Shown here: one piece after another, positions 184 to 16,177 of the stretch
Layout of the letters: each line of letters starts with the position of its first letter
Position numbering within the stretch: the stretch's first letter is position 1
DNA from: Mycobacteriales bacterium
GTDB lineage: Bacteria; Actinomycetota; Actinomycetes; JAFAQI01
Length of the DNA: 48,780 nucleotides
Direction: 5' to 3'
NCBI GenBank assembly: GCA_035504215.1
Contig: DATJSI010000081.1
Span: forward strand, 1 to 48,780
Notes under the pieces: model-generated
The model's input: the letters and a program-made list of their open reading frames with translations, nothing else
What the model was told of the DNA's origin: nothing
Database searches by the model: none
Position numbers and translations under genes: made by a program

Positions 184-189
184 CCGGCC

Positions 190-666: not shown

Positions 667-725
667 GCCTGCGACCGCCGACCCCGCCTGGGTGAGCGCG
701 AGCGCGCGCTGGGGAGACTGAGACG

Positions 726-1613: not shown

Positions 1614-2866
1614 CCGTGGACACCATCGGTCGCAGCCTGTCCGAGGGCTTCTTCATGTTCTGGGACACGTTGTGGGCGCTGATCTTCGGGTTCACGTTGT
1701 CCGGCCTGGTCCAGGCGTTCGTCTCGCGCGCACAGCTTCAGCGCGTAATGGGCGACCACGGTCCGAGGACGATCGTGCGCACCTCTCTGCTTGGTGCCGC
1801 ATCGTCGTCGTGTTCGTACGCCGCGAGCGCTCTGGCGCGCACGCTGTTCTCCCGCGGCGCCGACTTCACCACCTCGATGGTGTTCATGGTCGCCTCGACG
1901 AATCTCGTGGTCGAGCTCGGCGTCGTGCTGTGGCTGCTGCTCGGATGGCAGTTCGCGGTCGCCGAGTTCGTCGGCGGCTCCATCATGATCGTGTTGCTCG
2001 CTCTGATCGGCCCGAGGGTGTTTCGCGGCAGCTACGTGGCAGCCGCCCGGCGTCGAGCGACGGCGGCTACCGCAGGTCATGCGCACGGAGGCGAGCCCAC
2101 CGGCGGGTCGTTGTCCGCGCGCTGGCGGTCGCGGCAGAACTGGAGTGACGCGGCCTCGTTCACCCTCGCCGATCTTCGGATGCTGCGCCGCGAGCTCGTG
2201 ATCGGGTTCGTGGTCGCCGGCTTTCTCGCCGTCGCCGTTCCGAACTCGGTCTATCGGCACGTCTTCGTCACCGGTCACGGAGGCTGGACCGCTCTCGAGA
2301 ACGCGGTGGTCGGTCCCCTTGTCGCGTTCGTCAGCTGCGTGTGCTCGATCGGCAACGTCCCCCTCGCCGCCGCGCTGTGGTCCGGCGGTGTCAGCGTTGC
2401 GGGGGTGGTCGCGTTCGTCTTCGCGGACCTGCTCTCGGCGCCGTTGGTGGTGATCTACCGCAAGCTGTACGGCGGCCGGCAGGCGCTCATCCTGGTCGGC
2501 GTGCTGTGGTCGGTGATGAGCCTCGCCGGGTTGGCGACCGAGGCGCTGTTCCATGTCTCGGGGCTGTTGCCGCATGCCCGGCACATGCAGCCGGTGCGCA
2601 CCGGGTTCCGCTGGAACGCGACGACGTACCTGGACATCGTGTTCCTGATCGCGTTCGGCGCCGTGTGGTGGCTGGCCCGTCACCGCGGATCGGCGGGCGA
2701 TGACCGCTACGCGACTGACCCGGTGTGCGCGATGCGGGTCGAGAAGGCGAACCCGGGCGCGGTCGCCGTCAGTGGTGGTGTCACGACGTACTTCTGCTCC
2801 GATGGGTGCCGCGCGACGTACCGCGCGCGTACCGAGCCGCGTGATCGGGCGGTCGGACGTGGGTAG
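1610..2866 (+). CDS. ArsP/DUF318-type permease with C-terminal YHS metal-binding domain
   Basis: A 418-residue membrane protein. The N-terminal two thirds has about eight hydrophobic segments with the permease-family motifs SSSCSYAASALARTLF (around residues 64-80) and SCVCSIGNVPLAAALW (around 243-258). These paired Cys/Ser/Gly motifs are typical of DUF318/ArsP-type permeases, some of which export organoarsenicals. Residues about 365-402 (TDPVCAMRVE ... YFCSDGCRATY) form a YHS domain, a small Cys-rich metal-binding module often fused to metal transporters and P-type ATPases. The GTG start overlaps the amidohydrolase stop. The fusion suggests transport or sensing of a soft metal or metalloid; the substrate is inference. 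Confidence 0.8.
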   Translation: MTVDTIGRSLSEGFFMFWDTLWALIFGFTLSGLVQAFVSRAQLQRVMGDHGPRTIVRTSLLGAASSSCSYAASALARTLFSRGADFTTSMVFMVASTNLVVELGVVLWLLLGWQFAVAEFVGGSIMIVLLALIGPRVFRGSYVAAARRRATAATAGHAHGGEPTGGSLSARWRSRQNWSDAASFTLADLRMLRRELVIGFVVAGFLAVAVPNSVYRHVFVTGHGGWTALENAVVGPLVAFVSCVCSIGNVPLAAALWSGGVSVAGVVAFVFADLLSAPLVVIYRKLYGGRQALILVGVLWSVMSLAGLATEALFHVSGLLPHARHMQPVRTGFRWNATTYLDIVFLIAFGAVWWLARHRGSAGDDRYATDPVCAMRVEKANPGAVAVSGGVTTYFCSDGCRATYRARTEPRDRAVGRG

Positions 2867-2896
2867 CCTGGAGGGGTAACAGACACCAACCCACCA

Positions 2897-3254
2897 GGGG
2901 GTGAACGGTTTCGACTTCGGACGTCGATTCGAGAGAAGCGGGCTGAGGATGTCGCGTGAACTCATTAACCACCGCGGCAAAACAACAAATGCCGATAACA
3001 ACCGGCTCGCTCTCGCTGCCTAACCGGTAGCGAAGCTGTCAGCCTAGGGGCGCCTCCGCCCTAGGACCTGGCATCGATAGGAGGCTCCACCGAGGGACCC
3101 GGTCACGGGGTCCTGAGGGAAACCAAACAGTGACTGGGCCTGCAGCAGGGTGCCTGCGCCGCTGCTGGGGCCGAGAAAACCGAAGCAGGCTGCGCCCGGA
3201 GAAGTCTTGATGACCCGCCGAAGGACCCGGGTTCGATTCCCGGCACCTCCACCA
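2897..3254 (+). ncRNA. ssrA: tmRNA (transfer-messenger RNA)
   Basis: A 358-nt one-piece tmRNA. The 5' end GGGGGTG pairs with CACCTCC at the 3' end, including the G3-U70 wobble that alanyl-tRNA synthetase needs; an A discriminator and an encoded CCA follow. GTGAACGGTTTCGACTTCG after the 5' strand is the usual tmRNA D-like region, and GGGTTCGATTCCCGG is the T arm. The tag frame runs from resume codon GGC 2976 to TAA 3021-3023 and encodes GKTTNADNNRLALAA, ending in the LALAA degron seen by ClpXP. The last 25 nt up to 3252 are the attachment core of the downstream element, so the encoded 3' CCA comes from the element side. Confidence 0.97.
3228..3252 (+). repeat. attL core of the integrated element (within ssrA 3' end)
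   Basis: This 25-bp stretch covers the tmRNA T arm and acceptor strand and recurs without mismatch at 12668-12692 in the same orientation. The bases just outside differ (ACC before it here, GAA at the other copy; CA after it here, TG there). A tyrosine integrase gene lies next to it, pointing toward it. Together this marks the left junction of a site-specifically integrated element that uses ssrA as its attB. Confidence 0.93.
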
Positions 3255-3321
3255 AATCGAAGCTCTCGTCGCCGGTAAAGGCCCAGGTCAGAGTCTTGTT
3301 TCTGCTGGCGGCGATTTCGCT

Positions 3322-3361
3322 TCAAGATCAAAGCCCGTCAAAGCCCGAAGATCATTTAGGC
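3322..3361 (+). repeat. Left inner direct repeat, candidate integrase/excisionase arm site
   Basis: A 40-bp sequence that recurs at 12492-12531 in the same orientation with two mismatches. Each copy contains an internal near-duplication of AAAGCCCG followed by AAGATCAT. The copies sit just inside the two ends of the element, about 70 bp from the attL core and 136 bp from the attR core. Once the element circularises they would flank attP, as arm-type sites do for lambda-like tyrosine recombinases. The assignment as protein-binding sites is inference. Confidence 0.6.
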
Positions 3362-3428
3362 ACTGGCGGACAGACGAGTGTCCTGAGGGTGTCCAGCGGG
3401 CACCAGCGGTCGGCCTTCGCAGGCTCGA

Positions 3429-4595
3429 TCAGCGGGTCGGTTTGGACTGCGCTTTGGCTGCTTCGCGTGCTGCCCGGAACTGTTCGCGCCACGGCGTGTA
3501 ATCGTCGTTCGGCCGCAGGTGAACGTAGACCTGGTCGGTGACCGCGACCGAGGCGTGACCGAGCCAACGGCTGATGACCGAGAGAGGGATGCCGTCCTCG
3601 TACCAAAGGGTCGCGGCGGTGTGCCGCAGGTCGTGCAGCCGGAGTGCGGGTACGCCGATCCGGGCTGCGGCTGGCTTGAGGTGCCATTGGTAGAAGACGT
3701 GCGCGTCCCACGGCTTCGACGGGTCGCGGTCGTGACCGCCGACGGCTCGGCCGTAGAACAGGGGAGCGCTTAGCTCGTCGGCGCGAGGATGCTCGGCGAC
3801 GTAGTCCGACAGCGCGTCGAGCAGGTCGTCGTCGAGGATCGGGACATCGCGGCGACCCCGCCTGGTCTTCGGGGTCCCGACCACCCATTCGTCGAGCTTG
3901 CGATTGCGGGTCAGCGTGCGAGTCACCGAGACGCTGCCGCGGTCCAGATCGAGGTTGGCGATCAGCAGCCCGCAGAACTCAGCCGCCCGCAGGCCGGTCG
4001 CGGAAAGGAACCGGCCGACCAGTCCGTACGGCGGCCACCGGTCGAGCTCGGTGGCGAGCTGGTCCACCTGGCTTCGGGTCAGCGGCGTTCCCTCGAACTT
4101 TGCAGAGTCTCTATCTGAGGGCAGGTCGACCCCGGAGCACGGGTTGACCCTGATGATGCCGTGACGCACGGCGTACTTGAAGGTCGCCGACAGCGGTGTG
4201 TAGTGGTTGTAGATCGACTTGGTGGCCATCTTGGTTTCGCCGAGCTCCGCCAGCCAGTGCTCGATGTCGCGGGAGGTGATCGCTCCGATCCGTCGGGCTC
4301 CGAACGTCGGCAGCACGTGGACACGCAGCGAGGTCTCGTAGCTCTCCGCCGTACGTCGCTTCACTCGCCGGGTCGTGACAGCTAGCCAGTCCTTCGCGAC
4401 CTTCTCGAACGGCTCCCGTGCCGCGCGTTCGTCGGGCAGCTCGTCGCGCAACTCCTGGGCGATCCGTTCCTTCAGCGCGCGGTTGGCGCTGGTCTTGTCG
4501 CGGTAGGTGCGCTGGCTTTCGCGTCCCGCCGAGTCCGTCCAGCAAACAACGTAAGAGGTACCGCCGTCTCGGACTCTGGTCTTGAGATAGGCCAT
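3429..4595 (-). CDS. Tyrosine recombinase (phage-type site-specific integrase)
   Basis: A 388-residue integrase that should catalyse insertion into and excision from ssrA. An N-terminal arm-binding-like region (to about 60) precedes the SAM-like core-binding domain (about 60-150) and the C-terminal catalytic domain. All catalytic residues are visible: Arg203 in TGLRAAEF, Lys243 in TPKTRRG, His321-x-x-Arg324 in HDLRHTAATLW, His347 in LGHASV and Tyr357 in TDQVYVHL. The ATG at 4595 has GGAG 5 nt upstream. It reads toward attL, stopping about 180 bp from the core. The excisionase gene lies upstream on the same strand, 84 bp away, so both are probably expressed from the divergent promoter region near 4875-5002. 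Confidence 0.95.
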   Translation of the reverse strand: MAYLKTRVRDGGTSYVVCWTDSAGRESQRTYRDKTSANRALKERIAQELRDELPDERAAREPFEKVAKDWLAVTTRRVKRRTAESYETSLRVHVLPTFGARRIGAITSRDIEHWLAELGETKMATKSIYNHYTPLSATFKYAVRHGIIRVNPCSGVDLPSDRDSAKFEGTPLTRSQVDQLATELDRWPPYGLVGRFLSATGLRAAEFCGLLIANLDLDRGSVSVTRTLTRNRKLDEWVVGTPKTRRGRRDVPILDDDLLDALSDYVAEHPRADELSAPLFYGRAVGGHDRDPSKPWDAHVFYQWHLKPAAARIGVPALRLHDLRHTAATLWYEDGIPLSVISRWLGHASVAVTDQVYVHLRPNDDYTPWREQFRAAREAAKAQSKPTR

Positions 4596-4679
4596 GAACG
4601 CTCCAGCGACTCGCTCTTTGCCTCCGCTCTACCGCGCCGCCGCGTCCCTCGGGCTCGCTTGGCGGCGCTGTGTGGATAA

Positions 4680-4874
4680 CTAACCGAGACGAAGCTGCTG
4701 TGGCTGGGCTTCGATCCGGCCGGCTGAAACGAAGGCGTCGAGGTCGGTGTCCTCGAGCCGGACCTTGCTGCCGAGCTTGACGTAGGGAATCCGTTTCTCG
4801 GCGATCAGCCGGCGAATGAACCGGGGCCCGGTGCCGAGGTATGCGGCGGCCTGGTCGACGGTCAGCAAGGTCAT
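4680..4874 (-). CDS. Excisionase-like MerR/helix-turn-helix protein
   Basis: A 64-residue DNA-binding protein. It begins LLTVDQAAAYLGTG and continues RFIRRLIAEKRIPYVKLGSKVRLEDTDLDAFV, the standard helix-turn-helix-17/Xis fold in which the wing residues KLGSKVRL precede the final helix. The ATG at 4874 is preferred over a longer frame opening at 4934, because GAGGAG lies 7 nt upstream and the domain starts immediately. Such proteins bend DNA at att arms to favour excision. It is located directly upstream of the integrase on the same strand and divergent from the XRE regulator. Confidence 0.85.
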   Translation of the reverse strand: MTLLTVDQAAAYLGTGPRFIRRLIAEKRIPYVKLGSKVRLEDTDLDAFVSAGRIEAQPQQLRLG

Positions 4875-4943
4875 GGTGGGCTCCTCACGGTCCTGCACCG
4901 GGCATCGCCGATGACGAATGTTAATACTGGCCAAGGACCATAC

Positions 4944-4962
4944 GCCTGATATCTGTCAAGGC
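4944..4962. promoter_or_regulatory. Imperfect palindrome between xis and the XRE gene, candidate operator
   Basis: The sequence GCCTGATATCTGTCAAGGC is an imperfect inverted repeat in the 128-bp divergent region. On the minus strand it includes a perfect TTGACA, 12 bp upstream of the -35-like hexamer of the XRE promoter on the other strand. The XRE protein encoded to the right could bind here to control both directions. This is inferred from position and symmetry only. Confidence 0.35.
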
Positions 4963-4967
4963 AAGTG

Positions 4968-4995
4968 GTGACATTGCTTCAGGCGGGTGTAGGTT
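4968..4995 (+). promoter_or_regulatory. Candidate leaderless promoter of the XRE regulator
   Basis: A -35-like GTGACA (4968-4973) is separated by 16 bp from TAGGTT (4990-4995), a TANNNT -10 box. GTG 5003 follows after 7 nt, so transcription would begin at the start codon. No Shine-Dalgarno sequence stands before GTG 5003, which agrees with a leaderless transcript. Confidence 0.5.
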
Positions 4996-5002
4996 GCCGA
5001 TC

Positions 5003-5698
5003 GTGGCGCGTAGCAGAAAGACCGAGACGGACCGTGACGTACCGGCACGACCGTTCCCGGACGGGGTGAACCTCAACGAGATCGTTGCCTACAACTTCCG
5101 GCGAGCGCGGGAGCTTCGCGGCCTGACCCAGGACGAGGCCGCGGACCGGCTCGCGCCCTTTCTCGGGGTGCGGCTCAAGCAGGCCGCGATCTCCGGGATC
5201 GAGGGCGCCTACGGCGGGCAGAAACGCCGGGAGTTCGACGCGCAGGAGCTGCTCGCATTCGCGTGCGGGTTCGACCTGCCGATCATCTGGTTTCTGATCC
5301 CGCCACCCGGGGATCGTCGCAACCTGCAAGGCACCGGCGATCGGGTCAACGAGCTGTACCTGCTGGCGATGGGTCGCAACGACCAGCTCGAGTACCTGCG
5401 GGAGCGGTTCGCCGAAGTCGGGCACGTCGAACCCGATGAATCCGACCTCGTTCTCGAACGGGTCTACGGCGGCCCGACGGAAAGGACGCTTCTGGACTAC
5501 CCAACCCGCCGCAAGGAACTGCTGCTAGCGATGCTCGACTCTCGTGCGGACCGGCTCGACCAGGCCGCGGAGGAGATGGGCCGCTTCTTCGACCACCTTC
5601 GCCAGGTCGGGATCCGCGGCTACGTCGCGGAAAAGGCCAACGACCGCGACTTCATGTTCCCGCCGAAGAAGCCACCGCGCGGCAAACGCAGCCAGTAG
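5003..5698 (+). CDS. XRE-family transcriptional regulator of the element
   Basis: A 231-residue protein. Residues about 24-85 form a lambda-repressor-like helix-turn-helix (NFRRARELRGLTQDEAADRL ... KQAAISGIEGA, with AISGIE as the recognition helix). The region LLAFACGFDLPIIWFLIPP completes the usual XRE domain. The remainder is charged and helical with no second domain I recognise. GTG 5003 is chosen because of the leaderless promoter; TTG 4994 in the same frame is possible. It is divergent from xis/int and is likely the element's maintenance regulator. Its target is not visible beyond the palindrome at 4944-4962. Confidence 0.8.
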   Translation: MARSRKTETDRDVPARPFPDGVNLNEIVAYNFRRARELRGLTQDEAADRLAPFLGVRLKQAAISGIEGAYGGQKRREFDAQELLAFACGFDLPIIWFLIPPPGDRRNLQGTGDRVNELYLLAMGRNDQLEYLRERFAEVGHVEPDESDLVLERVYGGPTERTLLDYPTRRKELLLAMLDSRADRLDQAAEEMGRFFDHLRQVGIRGYVAEKANDRDFMFPPKKPPRGKRSQ

Positions 5699-5749
5699 CA
5701 ATCCATGCGGCGCTAGTGATTCGCGGTGGCCTCCGACCCGCATCGTCTC

Positions 5750-5755
5750 TACTCT
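5750..5755 (+). promoter_or_regulatory. -10 box of the toxin-antitoxin operon (leaderless)
   Basis: TACTCT fits TANNNT and ends 6 nt before GTG 5762. The antitoxin gene has no ribosome-binding site at normal spacing, so a leaderless start is likely. No convincing -35 is seen. Confidence 0.4.
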
Positions 5756-5761
5756 TGAGGG

Positions 5762-5992
5762 GTGATCTTCGACCGCATCACGATCGAACCGGACAAGATG
5801 TCCGGCCAGCCGTGTATCCGTGGGCTGCGGATCCCCGTCGCCACCGTGGTCGCGATGGTCGCGGACGGGATGACTGTTCCGGAGATCCTCACCGACCTAC
5901 CCGACCTGGAAGCCGAGGACGTCGCCCAGGCCCTGCGCTACGCCGCCGCCGCCGTCCGGGAACGTGAGCTGCCGCTTCGCCACCCGGCGTGA
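5762..5992 (+). CDS. DUF433 antitoxin (VapB45-like)
   Basis: A 76-residue DUF433 protein. The fold is recognisable from ITIEPDKMSGQPCIRGLRIPVATVVAMVADGMTVPEIL and the following YPDL-like segment (LPDLEAEDVAQALRYAAA). DUF433 proteins are antitoxins in pairs resembling VapBC45 of mycobacteria, where they bind DNA and the partner nuclease. The stop overlaps the start of the toxin gene by 4 nt (GTGA), giving tight translational coupling. It lies between the regulator and the relaxase and may help stabilise the element. Confidence 0.85.
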   Translation: MIFDRITIEPDKMSGQPCIRGLRIPVATVVAMVADGMTVPEILTDLPDLEAEDVAQALRYAAAAVRERELPLRHPA

Positions 5993-6357
5993 GAATTCTC
6001 GTCGACGCGAACCTCTCCCCTCGCCTCGCCGCCCTGCTCGTCACCACCGGTCATGACGCTGTGCACGTCAGCGACCTTGACCTGAGCTCGGCCAGCGATC
6101 ACACCATCCTCGAGGCCGCCGACCACGAGAACAGGGTGGTGCTGTCGGCCGACACCGACTTCGGCACGCTGCTCGCGGTGACCGGCCGGACACGTCCTTC
6201 CGTCGTGCTGGTACGCCTGACCAGCCCCCGCCGTACGGAGGCAATCGCGGCGCTGCTCGACGCCAATCTCCCCGCGTTGGCCGACGCGCTCACCTCCGGC
6301 GCGGTGGTCGTCGTCGAGGACGACCGGGTCCGAGTCCGGGACCTGCCACTGCGGTAG
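5989..6357 (+). CDS. DUF5615 PIN-like toxin (VapC45-like)
   Basis: A 122-residue protein with the DUF5615 PIN-like nuclease signature. MRILVDANLSPRLAALL gives the first acidic residue, LDLSSASDHTILEAA follows, and VVLSADTDFGTLLA gives the DTDFG acidic pair. C-terminal strands end in VRDLPLR. The acidic set expected for Mg-dependent RNA cleavage (Asp6, Asp after LSA, Asp in TDFG) appears intact. Together with the upstream DUF433 gene this is a type II toxin-antitoxin pair, here likely acting in post-segregational maintenance of the mobile element. The RNA target is unknown. Confidence 0.85.
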   Translation: MRILVDANLSPRLAALLVTTGHDAVHVSDLDLSSASDHTILEAADHENRVVLSADTDFGTLLAVTGRTRPSVVLVRLTSPRRTEAIAALLDANLPALADALTSGAVVVVEDDRVRVRDLPLR

Positions 6358-6390
6358 CGGCCGCGACACGCCCGACCGCGTGAGGAATTC

Positions 6391-6520
6391 TCACCTTCTC
6401 CCGATCCACCTCGCCCACCTGCTTTCCCTTCACCCCTCTTCACCGCCACATTCCTTTGCCTACCACCACTTCCCGCCCCGCCTATCACCTCTCGCTGCCC
6501 TTCTCACCCCGCCCCACGAT
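6391..6520. other. Pyrimidine-rich non-coding tract upstream of the relaxase (candidate oriT region)
   Basis: In these 130 nt of plus strand I count about 11 G and 16 A, so close to 80 percent is C or T, in a genome where strands are normally balanced. The tract fills the gap between the toxin stop and the relaxase promoter and holds no convincing open frame. Such strand-biased, easily melted DNA immediately upstream of a relaxase gene is a typical place for a transfer origin. No nic site can be identified by eye. Confidence 0.4.
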
Positions 6521-6525
6521 CCCAG

Positions 6526-6554
6526 CAGACATGTGCATCGGTGATGCGTACGGT
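6526..6554 (+). promoter_or_regulatory. Candidate leaderless promoter of the relaxase
   Basis: CAGACA (6526-6531) and TACGGT (6549-6554) are 17 bp apart, and ATG 6562 follows the -10 box after 7 nt. No Shine-Dalgarno sequence precedes any nearby start, so the message may be leaderless. This is the third element gene with the same arrangement. Confidence 0.45.
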
Positions 6555-6561
6555 GCCGGGC

Positions 6562-9279
6562 ATGTTGTCTACGGCGAAGGTGCGGACGAGCTCGTGGCGG
6601 TACTACGCGAACCAGGTCGGGCGCGGTGGGTGTGAGTACTTTCTCGGGATCGGTGAGGCGCCGGGGCGCTGGTACGGCCGGGGTCTGGACCGGCTCGGGC
6701 TCGAGCCGGGGGGTGAGGTGCGGGAGTGGCAGCTGGAGGCGACGTTCGGCCGGGCGGTGCACCCGGCCGGCCGGTATCGGCTGGGACGGGCGTGGCGCGC
6801 GGACGGGGTTACCGGGTATGACCTGTGTTTCTCCGCCCCGAAGTCGGTCTCGGCGCTGTGGGCGCTCGGCGGTGGCGATATCGGAGCCGCGATCCAGGCG
6901 GCGCACCGGGCGGCGGTCCGGGCCGGGCTGGACTACCTGGACAGCCATGCCGGGTTGTCCCGGGCCGGGCGCAACGGACACACCCAGGTCGGCACGGACG
7001 GGCTGGCCGCGGCGGTGTTCGACCACCGGACGTCACGGGCGGGGGATCCGCAGCTGCACACCCACGCGCTGGTGCTGAACAAGCTGCACTGCCCGGACGG
7101 GCAGTGGCGGACCATTGACGGGTATGAGATCTACACGCACAAGAAGTCCGCCGGCGTCCTCTACCAGGCGGCGTTGCGCTGCGAGCTGACCCGCCGACTC
7201 GGTGTGACTTGGGCAGAGGTCAGCAAGGACGGGCAGGCGGAGATCGCGGGTGTCCCGCAGACGCTGTGCGACCGGTGGTCGACCCGCGCCGGGCAGGTCG
7301 CCGTCGAGTCCGCGCCGGTGCTCGCCGGCTACGAGGCGGCACTGGGCCGGCCGTTGACCTCAGCGGAACGGAGCGCGGTGTGCAAGGTCGCGGTGCTCAA
7401 GACCCGCCCCGGCAAGGCGAGGGTCGACATCGTCGGGCTGGTCGACCGCTGGCACGGCGAAGCCGGTGAGCTGGGCTGGACCCCGGACCGGCTGGTTACC
7501 GCGGTCGCGGATACCGCCGGTCGCGCGCCGCACGTTGCGCCGGACGTGGACCGGCTGGTGCTCGACGCGGTGGCCGCGGCGGGTGCCCGCAAGGCGGTCT
7601 TCACCCGCTCGGATCTCGCGGTCGAGGTCGCGGCGCGGATCCCCGCGGACGCAGCGGTGGACGCGGCGACGGTGACCGACTGGGTGGAGCGGCTCACCGA
7701 CCGTGCCCTCACCCTCGAGCAGACCGTCACCCTGCTCCCCGAACGCGACGGCTGCGGCCGCCGCTCCGACGCCCGCTACGCCAGCGCGGTCACCTTGGGC
7801 CAGGAGCTGGCGATCATCCGGTTCGCTGAGGCCGGCCGGCGGGCGGGCGTGGCGATCTGCCCGCACCCGACGGTCGAACGGGCCTGCGGGCAGCATCAGC
7901 TCGACCCGGCCCAGGCCCGGGCGGTGCACTGGATCACCCGCGCCGGTGAACAACTCTCGGTGCTGGTCGCGCCGGCCGGGACCGGGAAGACCACCACGCT
8001 CGCGGCCATCATCGACGCCTGGCAGAACACCGGCCGGCAGGTCATCGCCCTGGCACCCTCGGCCCGGGCCGCGAAAGAACTCACGGCCGCGACCGGGCTG
8101 CCCGCGGACACGGTCGCGAAATACCTGCACGCGAACAGCACCGGCCGGTGGCCGGTCGACCCGCGGTATCGGCTCCGGCGCGGGGCGGTGCTGATCGTGG
8201 ACGAAGCCTCGATGCTGGCCACCGCCGACCTGCACGCGTTGAAACGCGAGGTCGAGACGGTCGGCGGGAAACTGCTGCTGGTCGGTGACCCGGCGCAGAT
8301 CGGCGCGATCGACGCGGCCGGCGGGATGCTGCCCGCGCTCGCCGACCGCCTCGACGCCCCGACCCTGACCACCGTCCACCGACTCCGTGAACGATGGGAG
8401 CAGGTCGCGACGCTGCAGCTCCGCGCCGGTGACCCGACCTGCATCCCCGCCTACCTCGCCCACGACCGGGTCCACCCGGTTCACCCCGACACCGACCCCT
8501 ACGACGCGGTGCTCGATGAGTACGAGCGGTTGACCGGCGCCGGTGCCCGGGTCCTGCTCCTGGCTCGCAGCCACGACGACGTCGACCAGCTCAACGCGCG
8601 CGCCCGAGCCCGCGCGATCGAACACGGTGAGATCCGCGGTGATCCGCTGCTGGCCGCCGGGGGATACCAATGGCGGGTCGGCGACCGGATGCGGGTCACC
8701 CGCAACAACCGACGGATCCCGGTCGGGGCTGACCACCTGCGCAACGGTGACCTGTTCACCGTCACCGGCCACACCCCGCACGGGCTCACCGTCCGGCGCC
8801 TGCACGGCCCGGACACCACCCTGCTACCCCGCGACTACCTCGCCCGACACGCCACCTACGGGTGGGCGTCCACCATCGACGCCGCGCAAGGCGCCACCGT
8901 CGACCACTCACTCACCCTGGCCCGGCCCGGGCTGGACCGCACCCGGCTCTACGTCGCGCTCACCCGCGGCCGCGAATCCAACCGGCTCTACCTCGCGCTC
9001 GAACCCGACCCCGAGATCACCTCAGCGAACACGACCCGGGCCGCACCCGACGCAGCCGCCCAGTTCGCCCGGCTCCTCAACCACAACAGCGCGCACGACG
9101 CCGCCCACACCCGCCTCCCCGAACCGATCCAGCCGACCCGGTCGCTCGAGCCGGCCACGCGGGCAAGCAGCAGAATCAGCAGAAGACCCCTCGCATCCGA
9201 ACGATTCGGCTACAGAGAACCGGATCCCCACCGCCCGCTCACCGCCGAACGCGACCACGGCCGAGGGGTAAGCCGCTGA
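6562..9279 (+). CDS. MobF-family (TrwC/TraI-type) relaxase-helicase
   Basis: A 905-residue conjugative relaxase that would nick oriT, stay bound to the 5' end and unwind the strand. The N-terminal relaxase domain (1-300) has Tyr14-Tyr15 in SSWRYYANQV and the three-histidine metal site His155 (VFDHRTSRAGD), His166 and His168 (PQLHTHALVLN). The helicase part has Walker A APAGTGKTT near residue 470, Walker B VLIVDEASML near 543, LLVGDPAQIGAID, and motif VI YVALTRGRES near 797. ATG 6562 (MLSTAK) matches how TrwC proteins begin; in-frame GTG 6541 and ATG 6544 are alternatives. The C-terminal 60 residues are low-complexity. No coupling protein gene accompanies it. Confidence 0.95.
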   Translation: MLSTAKVRTSSWRYYANQVGRGGCEYFLGIGEAPGRWYGRGLDRLGLEPGGEVREWQLEATFGRAVHPAGRYRLGRAWRADGVTGYDLCFSAPKSVSALWALGGGDIGAAIQAAHRAAVRAGLDYLDSHAGLSRAGRNGHTQVGTDGLAAAVFDHRTSRAGDPQLHTHALVLNKLHCPDGQWRTIDGYEIYTHKKSAGVLYQAALRCELTRRLGVTWAEVSKDGQAEIAGVPQTLCDRWSTRAGQVAVESAPVLAGYEAALGRPLTSAERSAVCKVAVLKTRPGKARVDIVGLVDRWHGEAGELGWTPDRLVTAVADTAGRAPHVAPDVDRLVLDAVAAAGARKAVFTRSDLAVEVAARIPADAAVDAATVTDWVERLTDRALTLEQTVTLLPERDGCGRRSDARYASAVTLGQELAIIRFAEAGRRAGVAICPHPTVERACGQHQLDPAQARAVHWITRAGEQLSVLVAPAGTGKTTTLAAIIDAWQNTGRQVIALAPSARAAKELTAATGLPADTVAKYLHANSTGRWPVDPRYRLRRGAVLIVDEASMLATADLHALKREVETVGGKLLLVGDPAQIGAIDAAGGMLPALADRLDAPTLTTVHRLRERWEQVATLQLRAGDPTCIPAYLAHDRVHPVHPDTDPYDAVLDEYERLTGAGARVLLLARSHDDVDQLNARARARAIEHGEIRGDPLLAAGGYQWRVGDRMRVTRNNRRIPVGADHLRNGDLFTVTGHTPHGLTVRRLHGPDTTLLPRDYLARHATYGWASTIDAAQGATVDHSLTLARPGLDRTRLYVALTRGRESNRLYLALEPDPEITSANTTRAAPDAAAQFARLLNHNSAHDAAHTRLPEPIQPTRSLEPATRASSRISRRPLASERFGYREPDPHRPLTAERDHGRGVSR

Positions 9280-9374
9280 CTGAACGGCCCCGGGTTCACT
9301 AGAGGCCCTGCTGCGCCCCGAGTTCAACGGCGTAGGCGATGCTGGACTCTGGTGTCTGACATCAGGAGACATGA
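9280..9374. other. Intergenic segment between relaxase and IS remnant
   Basis: A short gap with no convincing gene. AGGAG at 9364-9368 looks like the original ribosome-binding site of the decayed IS3 orfA that follows. Confidence 0.5.
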
Positions 9375-9599
9375 GTGGGGCGACGGGGGTACACGCCAGG
9401 TTTCCGTTGGCAGGTGGTTGATCTCACCGTACCCGGCCGTGGCGTAGCCCACGTGGCGCATGCTCTAGGGGTCAGCGAGCAGTCGATCTAAACGTGGCGC
9501 CTACAGCACTGCATCGACCGAGGTTTGCACGTTTGGCTGACCAGCGGCGAGAACGCCGAGCTGACCACAGCGCAAAAGCGCGCAACTGACGTCGGGCCG
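9375..9599 (+). pseudogene. IS3-family transposase OrfA, decayed (in-frame stop)
   Basis: From GTG 9375 the frame reads MGRRGYTPGFRWQVVDL, then GVAHVAHALGVSEQSI, a stop (TAA 9489-9491), then TWRLQHCIDRGL and LTSGENAELTTAQKR. This is the helix-turn-helix and start of the leucine zipper of IS3-type OrfA, where I would expect IYTWR at the stop. The similarity fades after about 9592, and neither OrfB nor terminal inverted repeats can be found. It marks an old insertion between the relaxase and the A+T-rich cargo. Confidence 0.75.
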
Positions 9600-9800
9600 A
9601 GTTGGACGGCAGACCGCATCGGGGCAGAAGGCAACGCCGAGCAGAGTGCTCAAAGTTGTGCCAAGCGAGACTTAGCCAGCGACCCACGCAAGCGGTCCCT
9701 CGTCGTGGGAAGCAGCCCCATCGAAAAATTTCGGCCAAAGTAATATGGTCGACCGCCTGTCGTTTTCGTTTCAGTAGACTAAAATCGAGCCAGCGGGGGC
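9600..9800. other. Non-coding region before the beta-propeller gene
   Basis: No credible gene is visible. Base composition shifts toward A+T along this stretch. TAAAAT at 9780-9785 could be a -10 box for the next gene, but no good -35 is present. Confidence 0.35.
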
Positions 9801-10859
9801 ATGGAGGGCGTTGTGGGTGTTCCTGTCACCGTGGATGTGATAAACGTCGGTGATCCGTCCACCCGACTTGTGTCTGGCATGGTTGGTATCGACCACGCGG
9901 TTGAGATCCAGAGCTTTGCCTTCGATAATGTGAACAATCTCGTCTACGTTGCGCAGGTCGCGGGTGCATGCAGTATCTCGTATGATCAATCGACGAGTTG
10001 GAAAACCGCGTCCGGAAGTTACCCGGTCTCGGCGTCACTGTCGATGGCGATGGCAGATAACGAGGCGGCCGGGAACCTCGCGATAACGCAATTACCGATG
10101 TCGGGTGCACCTCCGAATCCGCCGCATTCGATGTTCCTTTTGGGTTTCGGTCACGGTGTCGCGATTGGTGTAGAGCCGCAGGCTTCGCAGACGTACATAT
10201 GGGTCGAATGCCAATCGCAGCCGCCCGCAAATGGGGATGGGTTTGGGAACAAAGTTGCGAGGGTGCCGTTCACGCCCGGTGCCGTATTCCAGGCTTCTTC
10301 TTCGGATCTAGAGCTCTACGACCCGATCACCATACAAAACGGCTATATTACCGGGTACTCCTGTGCTCTAGATACGCAGAATGGCCTCCTCGCGTTACGG
10401 TACACGGAAAATGTTTATAATCAAGACCCTCCACCCGATGTTATCTCCACCAAATATGTCAGCGCGTATTCTTGGTCAAGCACGGATGGCCCAGACTTTT
10501 CGGCCGCACTAGCAACCATCCAGCAGCCGCCGGTTATAGAGGCTACCGACCTGGACGTCTTCCAAGGCTGGACTCTATACGGCTCTTGGGTGTACATGTT
10601 AGATTGGGATAAGTCTACCTCGCCATATACGATCTACACGACGTCGATCGACATCAACGGCGACGACAACCCGAACGGTGGCGGCACATATCATTTGCGC
10701 ACCTCTTCGTCCGCTGATGTGGACGCAGATCCTCGTGAGCCAGAGGGCATGGCTATATATCTCATACCCACTTCACCAACGCTTTGTTTCGGCATTACTA
10801 ATGACACAATTGAATACGGTATAACGTTCCACACGTTAGATATGTACGGAAAGGTCTAG
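9801..10859 (+). CDS. TagC/P68-RBP-like beta-propeller protein
   Basis: A 352-residue protein resembling actinomycete proteins labelled 'teichoic acid biosynthesis protein C', which share the beta-propeller of phage P68 receptor-binding protein and TagC. Recognisable blocks in order are IQSFAFDNVNNLVYVAQV, NLAITQL, FLLGFGHGVAIGVEPQ, QTYIWVEC, GNKVARVPFTPG, GYSCALDTQNGLLALRY, DVFQGWTLYGSWVYMLD and REPEGMAIYLI. There is no obvious signal peptide or membrane segment. ATG 9801 is used; in-frame GTG 9813 with GGAGGG upstream is possible. G+C is roughly half, far below the window norm, implying recent acquisition. Known relatives suggest carbohydrate or cell-wall binding; its job here is unknown. 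Confidence 0.65.
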   Translation: MEGVVGVPVTVDVINVGDPSTRLVSGMVGIDHAVEIQSFAFDNVNNLVYVAQVAGACSISYDQSTSWKTASGSYPVSASLSMAMADNEAAGNLAITQLPMSGAPPNPPHSMFLLGFGHGVAIGVEPQASQTYIWVECQSQPPANGDGFGNKVARVPFTPGAVFQASSSDLELYDPITIQNGYITGYSCALDTQNGLLALRYTENVYNQDPPPDVISTKYVSAYSWSSTDGPDFSAALATIQQPPVIEATDLDVFQGWTLYGSWVYMLDWDKSTSPYTIYTTSIDINGDDNPNGGGTYHLRTSSSADVDADPREPEGMAIYLIPTSPTLCFGITNDTIEYGITFHTLDMYGKV

Positions 10860-10891
10860 TACAAGCGACTTGCGAAACCCTCAAAACGAAG

Positions 10892-10932
10892 CGCTCACAT
10901 CTCGTTCCCAGGCACCAACTTGGGTGTGAGCG
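10892..10932 (+). terminator. Stem-loop between the two cargo genes
   Basis: CGCTCACA (10892-10899) pairs perfectly with TGTGAGCG (10925-10932), and inside it CCCA (10907-10910) pairs with TGGG (10921-10924), with a 7-nt bulge on the 5' side. It lies 32 bp after the beta-propeller stop and 52 bp before the next start. No T tract follows. It may act as a terminator or as a structured leader. Confidence 0.4.
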
Positions 10933-10984
10933 TTAGTGGCGCTAAGCGAGTCGATCTTACGAAGGAGAAGGAGGGGTGTGAATA

Positions 10985-12202
10985 ATGGATAGGTTCACTC
11001 TCTTCACTGGATCGGCCGATCGACGCACTCAACGTCCGGCCTGGCTGACCGTATCGTGCTGCCTCGTGGCGCTGACCGTGCCCGTTGTGATCGGGCGGCA
11101 GCATGCGGTTGCTGCTATGCCGTCCTCGGTGTCCGACAGCCACCTCCGGCTGGTTGCGGTACAAGGCTCGTCGCAATATTTAGCCTTCGAGTCCACGAAC
11201 AGTTCCACGACCGTGCATGCTGGTTTCGTTAACGCGGGAGAGCTGTATGTGATGGGTCGTCACGGCCACCTGCGTCGCCTTGCGAAGGTGCGGCGTCGTG
11301 ACGAGTCGGTGTCGTTGGTAGGTAGCAGCCTTCTGCTATGGAGCTCGTTGGACCCGGTGACATTTGAGCGGCGCGTGAATTGGTGGGACCTGGCGGCCCA
11401 CACTGCGGGGTCAGCGACTCTGCCGTCGAACGATGTCCCGGTGTCTGCTGCGCCTTCAGGCTGGGTGAGTGCGGTCGAGACCTCGAATGGAAAGGACGGA
11501 ACCTGCCAGGCTGCGTCGAAGCCATGTCGAACCGATCTTCAACTACATCGGTTCGGTGGCTCCACGGTGGACCTTGGGTCACCGATGCCAGCGGGAACAA
11601 CGCCCCAGTTCATCGCCGGCCCGTTTGGTTTGGTGGGCTTCGCCTTTGGTGGGAACAGCTCAGAGGAGGGCAAGATCGTGGCAATGCCCTGGAAGGGCGA
11701 CCGACGCTGGCGTACGCTGCTGAAGCCGGGCGCAGACCGGGGCAATATCTGCAACATGCTGACGGCCCGGAGCGTTAGCTGCCAGCTTACCGGCAAGGCG
11801 AATGTCTCACTTGCCTTACTGTCTTTGTCTGGCGGGCCTACGGTGCGATTCTCGCCAAAGCAATTGGCGCAACTTAAGCGTGGTGGCTGTGTATCGCTCT
11901 CGGCGATCCCGCATCACGGCAGTGCTGTCTCGATTGCTACCGCGAGTCAAAGCTGTACGCCAGGTACATTGAGTTTCCTCTCACTTAGGTCACATCTCAT
12001 TGCGATCTCGTCGCATCGGTTCGCGGCAGTTCTGCCTGTCAACGCATTTGATCGTGTCGCTGTGTCCAGCTCTCAACAACGACATCTTGACCTCGTAGGT
12101 GGGGCGACATCCAAGCCTAAGATGGTCGTCTCAACTCGCGACGGGCATGTTCTGGCCGGACCAGCACGACCAACGACGTCGATCGGTACTCGAGCGGGTT
12201 AG
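10985..12202 (+). CDS. Exported protein of unknown function
   Basis: A 405-residue protein. The N-terminus has a basic stretch (SADRRTQRPAW), a hydrophobic core (LTVSCCLVALTVPVVIG) and a small-residue cleavage zone near AVAAMPSS, so it is probably secreted. The mature part is rich in Ser, Thr and Gly with regularly spaced beta-strand-like segments (LRLVAV, YLAFES, LYVMG, SLVGSSLLLWSS), which suggests a repeated beta structure, perhaps a propeller. Paired cysteines (CQAASKPC; ICNMLTARSVSC; C ... C near residue 330-345) could form disulfides. ATG 10985 follows an AAGGAGAAGGAGG site. I recognise no family. Its position and composition pair it with the upstream beta-propeller gene. Confidence 0.6.
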   Translation: MDRFTLFTGSADRRTQRPAWLTVSCCLVALTVPVVIGRQHAVAAMPSSVSDSHLRLVAVQGSSQYLAFESTNSSTTVHAGFVNAGELYVMGRHGHLRRLAKVRRRDESVSLVGSSLLLWSSLDPVTFERRVNWWDLAAHTAGSATLPSNDVPVSAAPSGWVSAVETSNGKDGTCQAASKPCRTDLQLHRFGGSTVDLGSPMPAGTTPQFIAGPFGLVGFAFGGNSSEEGKIVAMPWKGDRRWRTLLKPGADRGNICNMLTARSVSCQLTGKANVSLALLSLSGGPTVRFSPKQLAQLKRGGCVSLSAIPHHGSAVSIATASQSCTPGTLSFLSLRSHLIAISSHRFAAVLPVNAFDRVAVSSSQQRHLDLVGGATSKPKMVVSTRDGHVLAGPARPTTSIGTRAG

Positions 12203-12491
12203 CCGCGTTGTACTCTTCGGATTGCGAGCGAATGCGGGCCGGCGACTGAGGTGTGGGGCGGCCTGCTTATTAAGTCGGTGGGACTGCGGGCTCAAATCCC
12301 TACCGCCGTCGTTCTGGCGCGGACCAGCCGATAGCAATAGGTGGCGCTCAGCGGCCCTATTGCACCGATGGCTAAGCCGATCGACCCTAACCGGCCACCG
12401 AGCGCGACGTCGACCGTCACATCCCACGATGCCGTGGCGCGTGTTGGCCGGGTCGGTCGGTAGGAGACAGGGCCGGCGAACGGTCGCAGAC
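12203..12491. other. Non-coding region near the right end of the element
   Basis: No convincing gene. GCAATAGG (12334-12341) pairs perfectly with CCTATTGC (12356-12363) across a 14-nt loop, a possible terminator for the exported-protein gene. Around 12285-12298 a GGG-CTCAAAT-CCC stem-loop resembles a tRNA T arm, perhaps a relic. Confidence 0.4.
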
Positions 12492-12531
12492 TCAAGATCA
12501 AAGCCCGTAAAGGCCCGAAGATCATTTAGGC
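12492..12531 (+). repeat. Right inner direct repeat, candidate arm site
   Basis: This is the second copy of the 40-bp repeat at 3322-3361, in the same orientation with two mismatches, 136 bp inside the attR core. It is discussed with the left copy. Confidence 0.6.
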
Positions 12532-12667
12532 GAAAGGGGTCACTCCTGGTAACCCGCGGGTGGGGACGGGGAACCGTACAGAGGCGTTGTCGCAGATCGT
12601 GCCGCATGAACCGGCACCGGCGGGCAGCGAGGGGCGATCACGGGGACGAACCCAAAATGGCTTCGAA

Positions 12668-12692
12668 CGGGTTCGATTCCCGGCACCTCCAC
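12668..12692 (+). repeat. attR core of the integrated element
   Basis: Perfect 25-bp copy of the tmRNA T-arm and acceptor 3' strand, matching 3228-3252. Here the discriminator A is followed by CTG rather than CCA. This suggests that the original chromosomal ssrA did not encode CCA and that the copy now in use got it from the element. A small hairpin follows (GGCGC 12701-12705 with GCGCC 12713-12717), perhaps the old ssrA terminator. Confidence 0.93.
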
Positions 12693-12845
12693 TGCAGAAA
12701 GGCGCTTACTTCGCGCCGTGCAGCGTCATTCGTGAGGTTCTTCGCGTGAATCTCCGAGCCACCGAGGTTACGACCATCGTGGCGAGGCGAGGTGATCGAA
12801 GGTCCAGGGCCACGACGACGCCTACGTTTGTTCCGAGGAGTAATC

Positions 12846-13019
12846 GTGGCGGCCAACGAGAAGCAGATTGAAGCGTGGAACGATGGTGAGTGGGTGCACT
12901 ACGTCGATAACGCCGACCGCTACGACAGCCAACTGTCGCCGTCCACCGACATGCTGCTTGAACGGGTCAGGCTTGTTGAGCCTATGGCCACCGGGCGCAG
13001 TGACGACATTGGGCGGTGA
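12846..13019 (+). pseudogene. Truncated class I SAM-dependent methyltransferase (N-terminal fragment)
   Basis: GTG 12846, preceded by GAGGAG 5 nt upstream, begins MAANEKQIEAWN and continues WVHYVDNADRYDSQLSPSTDMLLERV. This is the N-terminal helix region of a common class I methyltransferase family, which should continue into a glycine-rich SAM-binding motif (VLDVGCGTG-like). Instead the frame runs into unrelated residues and stops after 57 codons. The break lies soon after LVEP. The fragment sits 150 bp outside attR, so it belongs to the chromosome and decayed independently or through an imprecise event. About 150 bp to the next gene hold no other gene I can support. Confidence 0.55.
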
Positions 13020-13173
13020 GGCCGGATCCTGGCCGACTTCTTCGGTCACGGGAGGCATCACGTCCGTGCCGGCGAGGCCAGCGCATTCGCAGACGGCGAG
13101 ATGCGTATCCAAGTCGAGTGAGCGCGGACCTTGCGGCGGATGGTTGAAGTTCTGACACCGGTACTTTTGGCTG

Positions 13174-14214
13174 GTGGCACACGACGAGGCGATCAGGTTC
13201 GTGAATTGCACCGGTCGTCGTGTTGCGCTCGCGTTGACCGGTGATGGACCGGCCTTGGTTGCGCCCGCATGGTGGGTCAGCCACCTGGAGTTGGATTGGT
13301 CCGATTCAGCGGTCCGCACCTTCTGGGAGGCGGCCAGCGCCGGCTATTCCCTTGTGCGCTATGACCGGCTGGGTGTCGGCATGTCTGATCGGGACCTGCG
13401 CGCCGACGACCTCACGCTCGATGCGGAGGTTGCGGTGCTGCGAGCGGTAGTCGACGAACTGGCGCTGGAGAGGGTTGTGTTGATCGGCGGCTCGACGGGC
13501 GGCTGTTCCGCGATCGCGTTCGCAGCGCGTTTCCCCGAGCGGGTGAGTCGTCTACTGCTCTATGGAGCGTACGCGGACGGCTCGTCCATAACCTCACCGG
13601 AGGTGCGCGAGGCCTTGCTTGCTACCGTCCGCTCGCACTGGGGGCTGGGGTCGCGTGTTCTGGCGGATCTCTTCCTTGGTGAAGCCAGCAGTGACGAGCT
13701 AGAGCGACTGGCGGGTTATCAGCGCGCGGCGGCGAGCCCACAGACGGCAGCGGAGTGGCTGGAGGTCACATACCGCAACGACGTACGGGCGGAGCTGGAG
13801 CAGTTGCAGGTGCCGACGTCGGTGATCCACCGCCGCGGTGACCGCGCGATCCCCTTCCAATTAGGTCGGAGGCTCGCGGCCGCAATCCCGGGCGCGACCC
13901 TTCTGCCGCTCGACGGAACGGCGCATTTCCCCTGGGCTGGGGACCGGTTCGCCGTCGCGCGTGCGATGCGTTCTGTTCTCGCGCCTGACATTCGTCCGCG
14001 GGTCGCTGGAGAGCCAGCCGCCGTGCTGCTCTCCAGCCGCGAACGTGAGGTACTCGCATTGGTCGCGAACGGGTTGAAGGACCAGGAAATCGCCGCGCAC
14101 CTGTCCCTGAGCGAGCACACCGTGCATCGACACGTCGCCAATATCCGACACAAGCTGGGCCGGGGTTCACGGACCGCCGCGGTGGCCGAGGCGGCACGCT
14201 TGGGCCTGCTCTGA
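13174..14214 (+). CDS. Alpha/beta hydrolase fused to a LuxR-type helix-turn-helix
   Basis: A 346-residue two-domain protein. Residues 15-265 form an alpha/beta hydrolase: oxyanion-region VAPAWWVSHLELDW, strand YDRLGVGMSD, nucleophile elbow VLIGGSTGG with Ser107, an acid near the RGDRAIPF segment, and the catalytic His in DGTAHFPWAGD. Residues 280-345 (LSSREREVLALVANGLKDQEIAAHLSLSEHTVHRHVANIRHKLG) are a LuxR/GerE DNA-binding domain. The hydrolase part may sense or turn over a small lipophilic ligand and control DNA binding; related fusions are known from actinomycete regulators. Translation starts at GTG 13174. The downstream methyltransferase/LLM genes follow on the same strand after 84 bp and could be its targets. 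Confidence 0.85.
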   Translation: MAHDEAIRFVNCTGRRVALALTGDGPALVAPAWWVSHLELDWSDSAVRTFWEAASAGYSLVRYDRLGVGMSDRDLRADDLTLDAEVAVLRAVVDELALERVVLIGGSTGGCSAIAFAARFPERVSRLLLYGAYADGSSITSPEVREALLATVRSHWGLGSRVLADLFLGEASSDELERLAGYQRAAASPQTAAEWLEVTYRNDVRAELEQLQVPTSVIHRRGDRAIPFQLGRRLAAAIPGATLLPLDGTAHFPWAGDRFAVARAMRSVLAPDIRPRVAGEPAAVLLSSREREVLALVANGLKDQEIAAHLSLSEHTVHRHVANIRHKLGRGSRTAAVAEAARLGLL

Positions 14215-14298
14215 CCCGATGACCGGAACGGGCCATCGCGTCGATTTGGCCTTTCCGGGCGATGCGGTGACGCGTGCCGGGTACCTATCGTCCGCTTC

Positions 14299-14964
14299 GT
14301 GGACAGCAGCATCCCCGGTGTTGAACCGACACGTCGTTCGCGTGTTTGGGGGCGCGTATTTGCCGGTGTGTATGAGCCGTCTCTCTGGGCCGGCGAGCGG
14401 GCAGGCCTGCGTACCCAACGAAAGAAGCTGCTCGCTACGGCACGCGGACGCACAGTCGAGATCGGATCCGGTACTGGCCTCAACCTCGCGCATTACCCCG
14501 GTGACCTGGGCGAGTTGATCCTGACCGAACCAGACAGCGCGATGCGTTCTCGCCTGGACAAGAGGCTGAGCGGTGTCGCGCGACCCGTTGACGCGGACGC
14601 CGAGCACCTTCCGTTCGCCGATGGGTCGGTCGACACGGTCGTCTCGACCCTGGTGTTGTGCACCATCGACGACCCCGAACAGGCGCTGCGAGAGGTCGCC
14701 AGGGTATTGGCTCCCGATGGCCAATTTCTGTTCATCGAGCATGTCCGTTCCGACTCGGCAACACTGGCGCGCTGGCAGGATCGCCTGGCCACCCCGTGGT
14801 GTCGCTTTGCCCATGGGTGCCGGTGCAACCGTGCGATTGCGGAGCTGATGGTGAGTTGCGGATTTCAGCTCGACGCACTCGCCGAGGCTCGATGGCGCGC
14901 TATGCCGCCAATCGTGAGACCCCTCATCATCGGCCGGGCTCGACCCGGAGGCAGCGATGACTGA
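14299..14964 (+). CDS. Class I SAM-dependent methyltransferase
   Basis: A 221-residue methyltransferase of the Methyltransf_11 type. Motif I is RTVEIGSGTGLNLAHYP (around residues 50-66), the acidic end of strand 2 is LILTEPDSAM, motif III is VDADAEHLPFADGSVDTVVS and motif IV is ALREVARVLAPDGQFLFIEHV. The C-terminal half (WCRFAHGCRCNRAIAELMVSCGFQLDAL) resembles METTL7-like and UbiE-like enzymes that act on hydrophobic substrates. It overlaps the next gene by 8 nt, so the LLM oxidoreductase is probably translationally coupled to it. The substrate is not deducible. Confidence 0.85.
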   Translation: MDSSIPGVEPTRRSRVWGRVFAGVYEPSLWAGERAGLRTQRKKLLATARGRTVEIGSGTGLNLAHYPGDLGELILTEPDSAMRSRLDKRLSGVARPVDADAEHLPFADGSVDTVVSTLVLCTIDDPEQALREVARVLAPDGQFLFIEHVRSDSATLARWQDRLATPWCRFAHGCRCNRAIAELMVSCGFQLDALAEARWRAMPPIVRPLIIGRARPGGSDD

Positions 14965-15889
14965 CGTCCGGGTCGGGATGTTCCCGCCCGCCGCTGAGTT
15001 CACCGGAACTCTCGGCGGTTCGGAGGCGCTGCGGGGGACGCTCGCCCGCATGGCCGACCAGGGCGTTGATCACGTCTGCGTCGGCGACCACGTGAGTTTT
15101 TTCGTGGGAGCAGGCTCGGACGGACTGACCACGGCGACCGCCGTGTGCGCCGCTCATCCTGAGCTACCGGTCTACGTCGCGCTCTATCTGTTGCCGTTGC
15201 GCCATCCGGTACTGGTCGCTCGACAGCTCGCGACGCTTTCTCAACTGGCACCCGGCCGGCTCACGTTCGGCGTCGGGCTCGGCGGCGAGGACCCGCACGA
15301 GGTCGAGATCTGCGACGTGGACCCCAGGACGCGCGGACGCCGCATGGACGAATGCCTCCACATCCTCAGTCGTCTCAGCGCGGGTACGCCGGTTAGCTTC
15401 GACGGAACATTTTTCTCGCTCCGCGATGCGCTGATCTTGCCCGCGCCGTCGCCGCGGATTCCCGTGATCGTCGGAGGGCGGTCAGCTGCGGCGGTCAACC
15501 GTGCCGCACGGCTCGGCGACGGATGGCTTGGGATCTGGGTTTCGCCACCAAGATTCGCGGCGGTGCGCGATCAGATTGCGCGGGAGGCCGCCGAAGCGGG
15601 AAGAAACGGCCACGAGTTCAGCCATGCACTCAACGTCTGGTGCGGCTTTGCGCCCAAGCGAGCAGCGGCGCGCGGGTTTGTGTCGGCGCAGATGCAAGCC
15701 TTCTACCAGATGCCGTTCGAGCCGTTCGAGCGCTACTCGCCGTATGGCTCACCAACAGAGGTCGCCGAGTTTCTGATTCCCTACGTTGATGCTGGTTGCT
15801 CAGCGTTCAACCTGATTCCCTGCGCCATCGACATCGACGGCGCCACCAGTGCGGTGGCTGAAGTTCGACGGCTGCTCTCAGTGCGGTGA
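14957..15889 (+). CDS. LLM-class flavin/F420-dependent oxidoreductase
   Basis: A 310-residue luciferase-like monooxygenase-family TIM barrel. Visible family segments are VDHVCVGDHVSFFV (strand with the conserved DH), the LYLLPLRHPVLVARQLATLSQLAPGRLTFGVGLGGEDPHEV region, the RGRRMDECLHILSRL helix and IPVIVGGRSAAAVNRAARLGDGWLGI. In actinomycetes many members use coenzyme F420; the sequence cannot separate F420 from FMN use. Its ATG lies inside the end of the methyltransferase gene. The pair may modify and then oxidise or reduce the same molecule, which is inference. Confidence 0.85.
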   Translation: MTDVRVGMFPPAAEFTGTLGGSEALRGTLARMADQGVDHVCVGDHVSFFVGAGSDGLTTATAVCAAHPELPVYVALYLLPLRHPVLVARQLATLSQLAPGRLTFGVGLGGEDPHEVEICDVDPRTRGRRMDECLHILSRLSAGTPVSFDGTFFSLRDALILPAPSPRIPVIVGGRSAAAVNRAARLGDGWLGIWVSPPRFAAVRDQIAREAAEAGRNGHEFSHALNVWCGFAPKRAAARGFVSAQMQAFYQMPFEPFERYSPYGSPTEVAEFLIPYVDAGCSAFNLIPCAIDIDGATSAVAEVRRLLSVR

Positions 15890-16177
15890 GCCGGGTGGGA
15901 CACGAAGGTGATCTCGGCCGCCGCAAAATGATTGTCGCGCCTGCCAAGACCGGGCCGCGGTTCGTGTCCGGAGGCATCACCTCCACCAAAGATGGCCCTG
16001 CTTGATCAAAGATGGCCCTGCTTGATCGCTGCCTGAGCTCCTCGCGCCGGCTTGTCGGCTAGAGGGTGAGTGCGGTGGCGGGATAGTCCTCGACCGGTCG
16101 CGTCTTGAAGGTGGCGTGACACAAGACCATGCCGGCAGGGTCGGCGGTCGCCGGCTCCACGGTTCTGCATCTGTAGG
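15890..16177. other. Intergenic region with possible coding relic
   Basis: No intact gene. It includes the 20-bp tandem repeat described separately. On the minus strand the frame between about 16190 and 16059 reads [36 protein letters not shown] and stops at 16059. This looks like a natural protein C-terminus but has no start of its own. Confidence 0.35.
15988..16027 (+). repeat. Perfect 20-bp tandem duplication
   Basis: AAAGATGGCCCTGCTTGATC occurs twice without a gap or mismatch. It lies in the gap between the LLM gene and the SnoaL-like gene. Its origin is not clear; it may be the scar of an insertion or replication slippage. Confidence 0.8.

Follow-up and report, generated by a model that had tools for sequence, protein, structure and literature searches.

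A MOBF-type integrative mobilizable element in ssrA of a Mycobacteriales bacterium carries a leaderless propeller-family gene and a gene of a predicted exported family

The Integrative Element in ssrA

The window analyzed here is the whole 48,780-nucleotide stretch of a contig (DATJSI010000081.1) from a Mycobacteriales bacterium. It contains a 9.4-kb integrative mobilizable element of the MOBF type (3255-12692), inserted in the 3′ end of ssrA (Table 1). The attR copy is the only further ssrA fragment matched in the same genome; in 11 other genomes of the host's family a single ssrA match was found in each, with the duplicate absent. The inner 40-bp repeats are situated 70-180 bp inward of each element end. 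An Rfam scan of positions 1-16000 returned the tmRNA as its sole match. Special RNA structure in the intergenic sequence was considered as well and set aside, its score being unremarkable (z = -0.46).

Table 1. Features of the ssrA-integrated element and its cargo (positions are those of the window).
Feature	Position	Strand	Evidence
ssrA (tmRNA gene), integration target, 3′ end = attL	2897..3254	+	ARAGORN; Rfam RF00023, 151 bits
attL core, 25-bp ssrA 3′ end	3228..3252	+	perfect direct repeat with 12668-12692
Inner 40-bp repeat, left end	3322..3361	+	95% identical to 12492-12531; putative integrase arm site
Tyrosine integrase, 388 aa	3429..4595	-	PF00589 E = 8.9e-20; SAM-like N-domain
Excisionase-like HTH_17 protein	4680..4877	-	PF12728 E = 6e-13
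HTH regulator	4994..5698	+	HTH_31 E = 0.002, weak
DUF433 protein, antitoxin-like partner of the DUF5615 gene	5762..5992	+	PF04255 E = 5e-24; putative toxin-antitoxin role
DUF5615 PIN-like protein, toxin-like	5989..6357	+	PF18480 E = 2.7e-27; PIN_10 E = 5e-10
TrwC/MOBF relaxase-helicase, 912 aa	6541..9279	+	PF08751 E = 9e-76; AAA_30
Decayed IS3-type OrfA remnant	9420..9740 (approximate)	+	stop-interrupted frame; HTH_Tnp_1 E = 0.0075, sub-cut-off
orf352, leaderless member of the PF21311/P68-RBP-platform family of five-bladed propellers	9801..10859	+	PF21311 28.9 bits; PDB profile 2e-19
orf405, predicted exported protein, lineage-restricted Cys-containing family, probably propeller-type surface protein	10985..12202	+	predicted signal peptide; ten own-genome members; blade-like match
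Inner 40-bp repeat, right end	12492..12531	+	95% identical to 3322-3361
attR, 25-bp copy of ssrA 3′ end	12668..12692	+	perfect direct repeat

The TrwC relaxase can be aligned to plasmid mobF proteins across about 90% of its length. No gene for a coupling protein, VirB4, an FtsK-type protein or a secretion component was detected among the ORFs of 3255-12692, which leave no room for one; therefore, classification as a MOBF-type integrative mobilizable element suits it best. It has been reported that MOBF/TrwC-type relaxases are frequent in Actinobacteria, and that tyrosine-recombinase elements in these bacteria prefer tRNA-type sites (PMC3218068). The element shares a tyrosine integrase, a tRNA/tmRNA-type site, and a TrwC relaxase with the Actinobacterial integrating elements described there; however, it has no coupling, VirB4 or FtsK-type transfer gene of its own, making it mobilizable rather than self-transmissible. 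No close relatives were found: a TrwC scan of genome contigs gave a single match of 36% identity, and an integrase search gave nothing above 39%. The DUF433 and DUF5615 genes look like a toxin-antitoxin stability pair. Their reading frames (5762-6357) overlap by 4 bp. Just beyond attR, the product of a gene at 13174-14214 joins an alpha/beta-hydrolase to a LuxR-type HTH domain at the C-terminus; a copy with 67% identity is present in another genome (G007).

Composition of the Cargo Genes

The coordinates and strand of both cargo ORFs agree with the initial annotation, which had also described the two genes as a low-G+C pair of foreign origin. Both descriptions are borne out. The enclosing ssrA element, the absent leader of orf352, and the paralogs of orf405 had escaped that annotation. 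The G+C content is 53.5% for orf352, 60.3% for orf405, and 57.0% for the two together, compared to 69.2% in the remainder of the element (3255-9279), 68.3% in the window outside the element, and a sliding mean of 68% for the window. The block is the G+C minimum of the whole window, approximately 3.5-4 SD under the length-matched sliding mean; the second-lowest 1.2-kb stretch has 64% G+C. The decayed IS3 gene that had been placed upstream is plausible, since an OrfA-like frame can be recognized, but weak, as its HTH_Tnp_1 match falls under the cut-off.

The chance that a given 352-codon frame would stay open at this composition is P ~4e-7. Because of this value, and of the match of orf352 to PF21311 above the gathering cut-off, the two ORFs are not considered chance frames. 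Codon structure is kept in both genes, with the third position the most G+C-rich. The values for orf352 (GC3 0.60 > GC1 0.54 > GC2 0.46) are still codon-like. The GC3 of orf405 is 0.64, versus 0.69-0.89 in its relatives, which would fit a transfer out of a relative of lower G+C.

orf352 and Phage Receptor-Binding Proteins

A kinship of the first cargo protein to phage receptor-binding proteins had been proposed from the sequence, and profile searches confirmed it. orf352 matched Pfam PF21311 (Phage_RBD_prop) over residues 37-325 (28.9 bits, gathering cut-off 23.7); in a six-frame genome scan with the PF21311 model alone it stayed under detection, not reaching an E of 0.001. A profile built from ten relatives matched P68 gp17 in the PDB (6iab/6iac, E = 2e-19), a phage Gp17 (9m7x, E = 2e-13), and the receptor-binding proteins 80alpha gp61 and a phiETA-like/phi11-type protein (6v8i and 5efv, E = 1e-6 each). 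The ten-sequence alignment has 12 invariant columns, including G117-H118-G119, W134, E136, E313, and E315, all of which orf352 fits. It retains 28 of the 34 columns strongly conserved in the remaining rows; the six altered positions include G to W at 269, G to Y at 276, and N to T at 277.

For 80alpha and phi11, it has been proposed that the GlcNAc of wall teichoic acid binds to the propeller domain, whose cavity could accommodate a single GlcNAc (PMC7048315, PMC4901313). orf352 shares sequence homology over the propeller with this platform, as found in P68 gp17, 80alpha gp61, and phi11 Gp45 (PMC7048315, PMC4901313), and has GHG and EPEG motifs in common with P68 gp17. By analogy with the family, orf352 probably binds a carbohydrate or glycopolymer through its central cavity. 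Unlike the receptor-binding proteins of P68, 80alpha, and phi11, the 352-residue protein is a propeller alone, without a coiled-coil stem, tower domains or phage structural genes nearby; its neighbors are the integrase, the relaxase, and orf405.

Both by sequence and in the tree, the nearest proteins to orf352 are Actinobacterial Tat-exported propellers, with up to 36% identity (e.g., the "Tat pathway signal sequence domain protein" of Streptomyces plasmid NZ_CP109164). Relatives were detected in 24 of the 297 class genomes sampled (about 8%), in five Streptomyces and one Nonomuraea record of the plasmid collection, and in just three Bacillus phage tail fibers of the phage collection, one of them annotated as teichoic acid-interacting. 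Among viral contigs (IMG/VR) there was one relative of orf352 and none of orf405; this sole viral relative (L052 2764-6825) is found at the end of its contig, 1.7 kb beyond a tyrosine integrase and beside a secreted repeat protein. A phage-derived orf352 was rejected. The best E-values were 5e-24 for Streptomyces versus 3e-8 for phage, and in the tree orf352 falls within the Actinobacterial radiation together with bacterial Tat proteins, apart from the phage protein. Its terminal branch is about four times the median (2.0 vs. 0.49); instead of relaxed constraint, this length could reflect a lineage absent from the sampling.

The AF2 model of orf352, made from an alignment of two sequences, was too poor for use (pLDDT 37). 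GH43 enzymes, which are five-bladed propellers, topped a weak Foldseek list for this model (best E = 5e-3); the ranking is only consistent with a five-bladed fold.

Absence of a Tat Leader in orf352

A twin-arginine motif followed by a hydrophobic stretch was present in 22 of the 25 bacterial family members examined (orf352 counted in), and one more carries an R-K variant. No Tat leader was found in orf352, in contrast to the Actinobacterial Tat-exported propellers, nor in one other copy (L030/L068). The frame of orf352 is closed six codons before its ATG, the other frames show no leader either, and the IS3-like remnant lies 60 bp upstream. Without a Tat leader, orf352 is unlikely to reach the surface and is predicted to be cytoplasmic. 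We suggest that it is probably a cytoplasmic copy, truncated or repurposed, and that a 5′ truncation close to the IS remnant probably removed the leader.

The same observations would suit a decaying pseudogene, 5′-truncated where the IS3 element landed or decayed, with orf405 as the only functional cargo. Along with the missing leader and the nearby remnant, this explanation can call on the six changed conserved positions and the long branch. We regard it as unlikely, however, for the 352 codons are still open against the chance value of P ~4e-7, the order GC3 > GC1 > GC2 is codon-like, and the protein fits the family-invariant columns. With the majority of conserved residues intact, orf352 does not appear to be an obvious pseudogene.

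It is less probable still that orf352 represents a truly cytosolic, leaderless propeller with a conserved intracellular role of its own. A second leaderless relative does exist in a different family of the class (L030/L068), but the two copies stand apart in the tree and have no context in common. The gene for this relative (L068 3855-5920) is immediately upstream of nitrile hydratase subunit-like genes.

The orf405 Family

The initial annotation had the second cargo protein exported and without a known family. Export is in line with our analysis: the N-terminus of orf405 has a hydrophobic segment (residues 21-36, mean hydropathy 2.49) followed by an AVAA-type site, the features of a predicted signal sequence, and paralogs with N-termini included have signal-type hydrophobic N-termini too. 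As to the family, no match was obtained in Pfam, NCBIfam, PHROGs or PADLOC; with regard to these databases the description holds, but orf405 belongs to a family with ten members in its own genome. These members, some arranged as tandem (C33) or divergent (C87) pairs, rule out a foreign orphan. Among the 12 genomes of the host's family, two others, of other genera, have three members each (G004 and G010), and the remaining nine have none. Beyond the host's family, searches covering 396 genomes from the phylum and 394 from the class gave weak partial matches only, with no convincing full-length member, and no match was found in the plasmid collection.

One relative of orf405 is fused to NlpC/P60 (E = 1e-23) and another to FlgD_ig (E = 7e-8); based on these fusions and the signal-type N-termini, the family is placed at the cell surface. 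The divergent pair, the NlpC/P60 fusion, and the FlgD_ig fusion are found at L035 7161-10650, L038 1144-3000, and L095 3227-5485, respectively. Cys256 and Cys266 are invariant in the family and Cys302 nearly so, and its members are probably disulfide-containing.

Columns ~126-206 of the orf405 profile gave low-score matches to consecutive repeats of about 40 residues in L104, a protein called Vgb-like by its repeat pattern and not by a database match, and also to exported SGL/PQQ-type propellers (L103 and L106). Moderate evidence, a weak match of one segment, thus suggests a Vgb/SGL-like propeller. This segment resembles the blade repeat of Vgb (virginiamycin B lyase)-like and SMP-30/SGL propellers; the orf405 family differs from them in its conserved cysteines and in having no full-length match. 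The Vgb_lyase model scored far under its cut-off on an orf405 paralog, and a search of the PDB returned nothing below E = 0.3. No internal repeats were detected in orf405 by hhalign, which gave none for the known propeller family either. The single-sequence AF2 model was unusable (pLDDT 33).

Relationship between orf352 and orf405

The two genes are encoded on the same strand with a gap of 125 bp, and a good Shine-Dalgarno sequence precedes orf405. Given the shared strand, the gap, and the low G+C, co-transcription and joint acquisition are possible. No homology between the two proteins was detected (hhalign probability 0.1%). Among all genomes and loci examined, the two families are side by side in the window only; with only 12 genomes representing the host's family, the sampling says little about how rare the pair is. 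G004 is the sole other genome with both families, and there they are on separate contigs. Neighborhoods fetched around orf352 relatives had no orf405 relative. Neither protein matched a PADLOC defense family, and a known antiphage defense system was set aside on this ground.

It had been speculated that the two proteins could act together in surface recognition or against phages. This idea is unsupported: the pair was not found elsewhere within the sampling, orf352 has no leader, and PADLOC gave no match. Of the two observations that the initial annotation had named as counting against it, a lack of co-occurrence holds as far as the sampling reaches, and a lack of export of orf405 does not. 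A related proposal is that they are a functional unit, a cytosolic or envelope propeller with an exported partner, that masks or recognizes envelope glycopolymers, with phage-adsorption exclusion or interbacterial recognition as a selfish benefit for the element. The genes are adjacent on one strand, both low in G+C, and the sole cargo of a mobile element, and a phage-receptor-type fold in orf352 stands next to an exported surface family for orf405. We nevertheless assign this proposal little probability, considering that the pair co-occurs in no other genome seen and that orf352 has neither an export signal nor, like orf405, a match in PADLOC. We give hardly any credence to a two-propeller module, with orf352 intracellular and orf405 exported, that alters or masks an envelope glycopolymer bound by phages or competitors and so provides superinfection or entry exclusion.

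The explanation that we consider likely, though well short of certain, is that orf352 and orf405 are independently acquired accessory cargo of the ssrA element, neighbors rather than an evolved pair. The element integrates into the 3′ end of ssrA through its tyrosine integrase, and its TrwC relaxase, judged by family, would allow mobilization by a coupling protein and a secretion channel supplied by a helper. From its G+C and position, the cargo appears to have joined the element apart from the core, next to the IS3-like remnant. orf352 would have come from the Actinobacterial Tat-exported five-bladed propellers, homologous to the wall-glycopolymer-binding platform of P68, 80alpha, and phi11; this copy most likely shed its leader in a 5′ truncation beside the IS remnant, would stay cytoplasmic, and may be losing function. 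orf405 would be a mobile member of a surface family that is exported, probably contains disulfides, and is multi-copy in the host; it is probably a Vgb/SGL-like propeller serving as an envelope-binding protein.

orf352 and orf405 are ordinary mobile-element cargo from two interesting protein families. The first ties the wall-polymer-binding platform of phages of Gram-positive bacteria to exported Actinobacterial propellers, one copy of which is carried on an integrative element. The second defines an exported surface family present in three of 12 genomes of one bacterial family, with up to ten copies per genome, and missing from Pfam and NCBIfam; as an unnamed surface family it is worth a Pfam entry. 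Both are useful annotation leads; on the current evidence, neither amounts to a new system.

In eight neighborhoods of 8-9 kb around orf352 relatives, no shared partner was found. On one Streptomyces plasmid (L061 7899-16208), the gene for a Tat propeller is followed by a gene for a HINT-domain polymorphic toxin; on another (L062), it comes after an SH3-domain gene.
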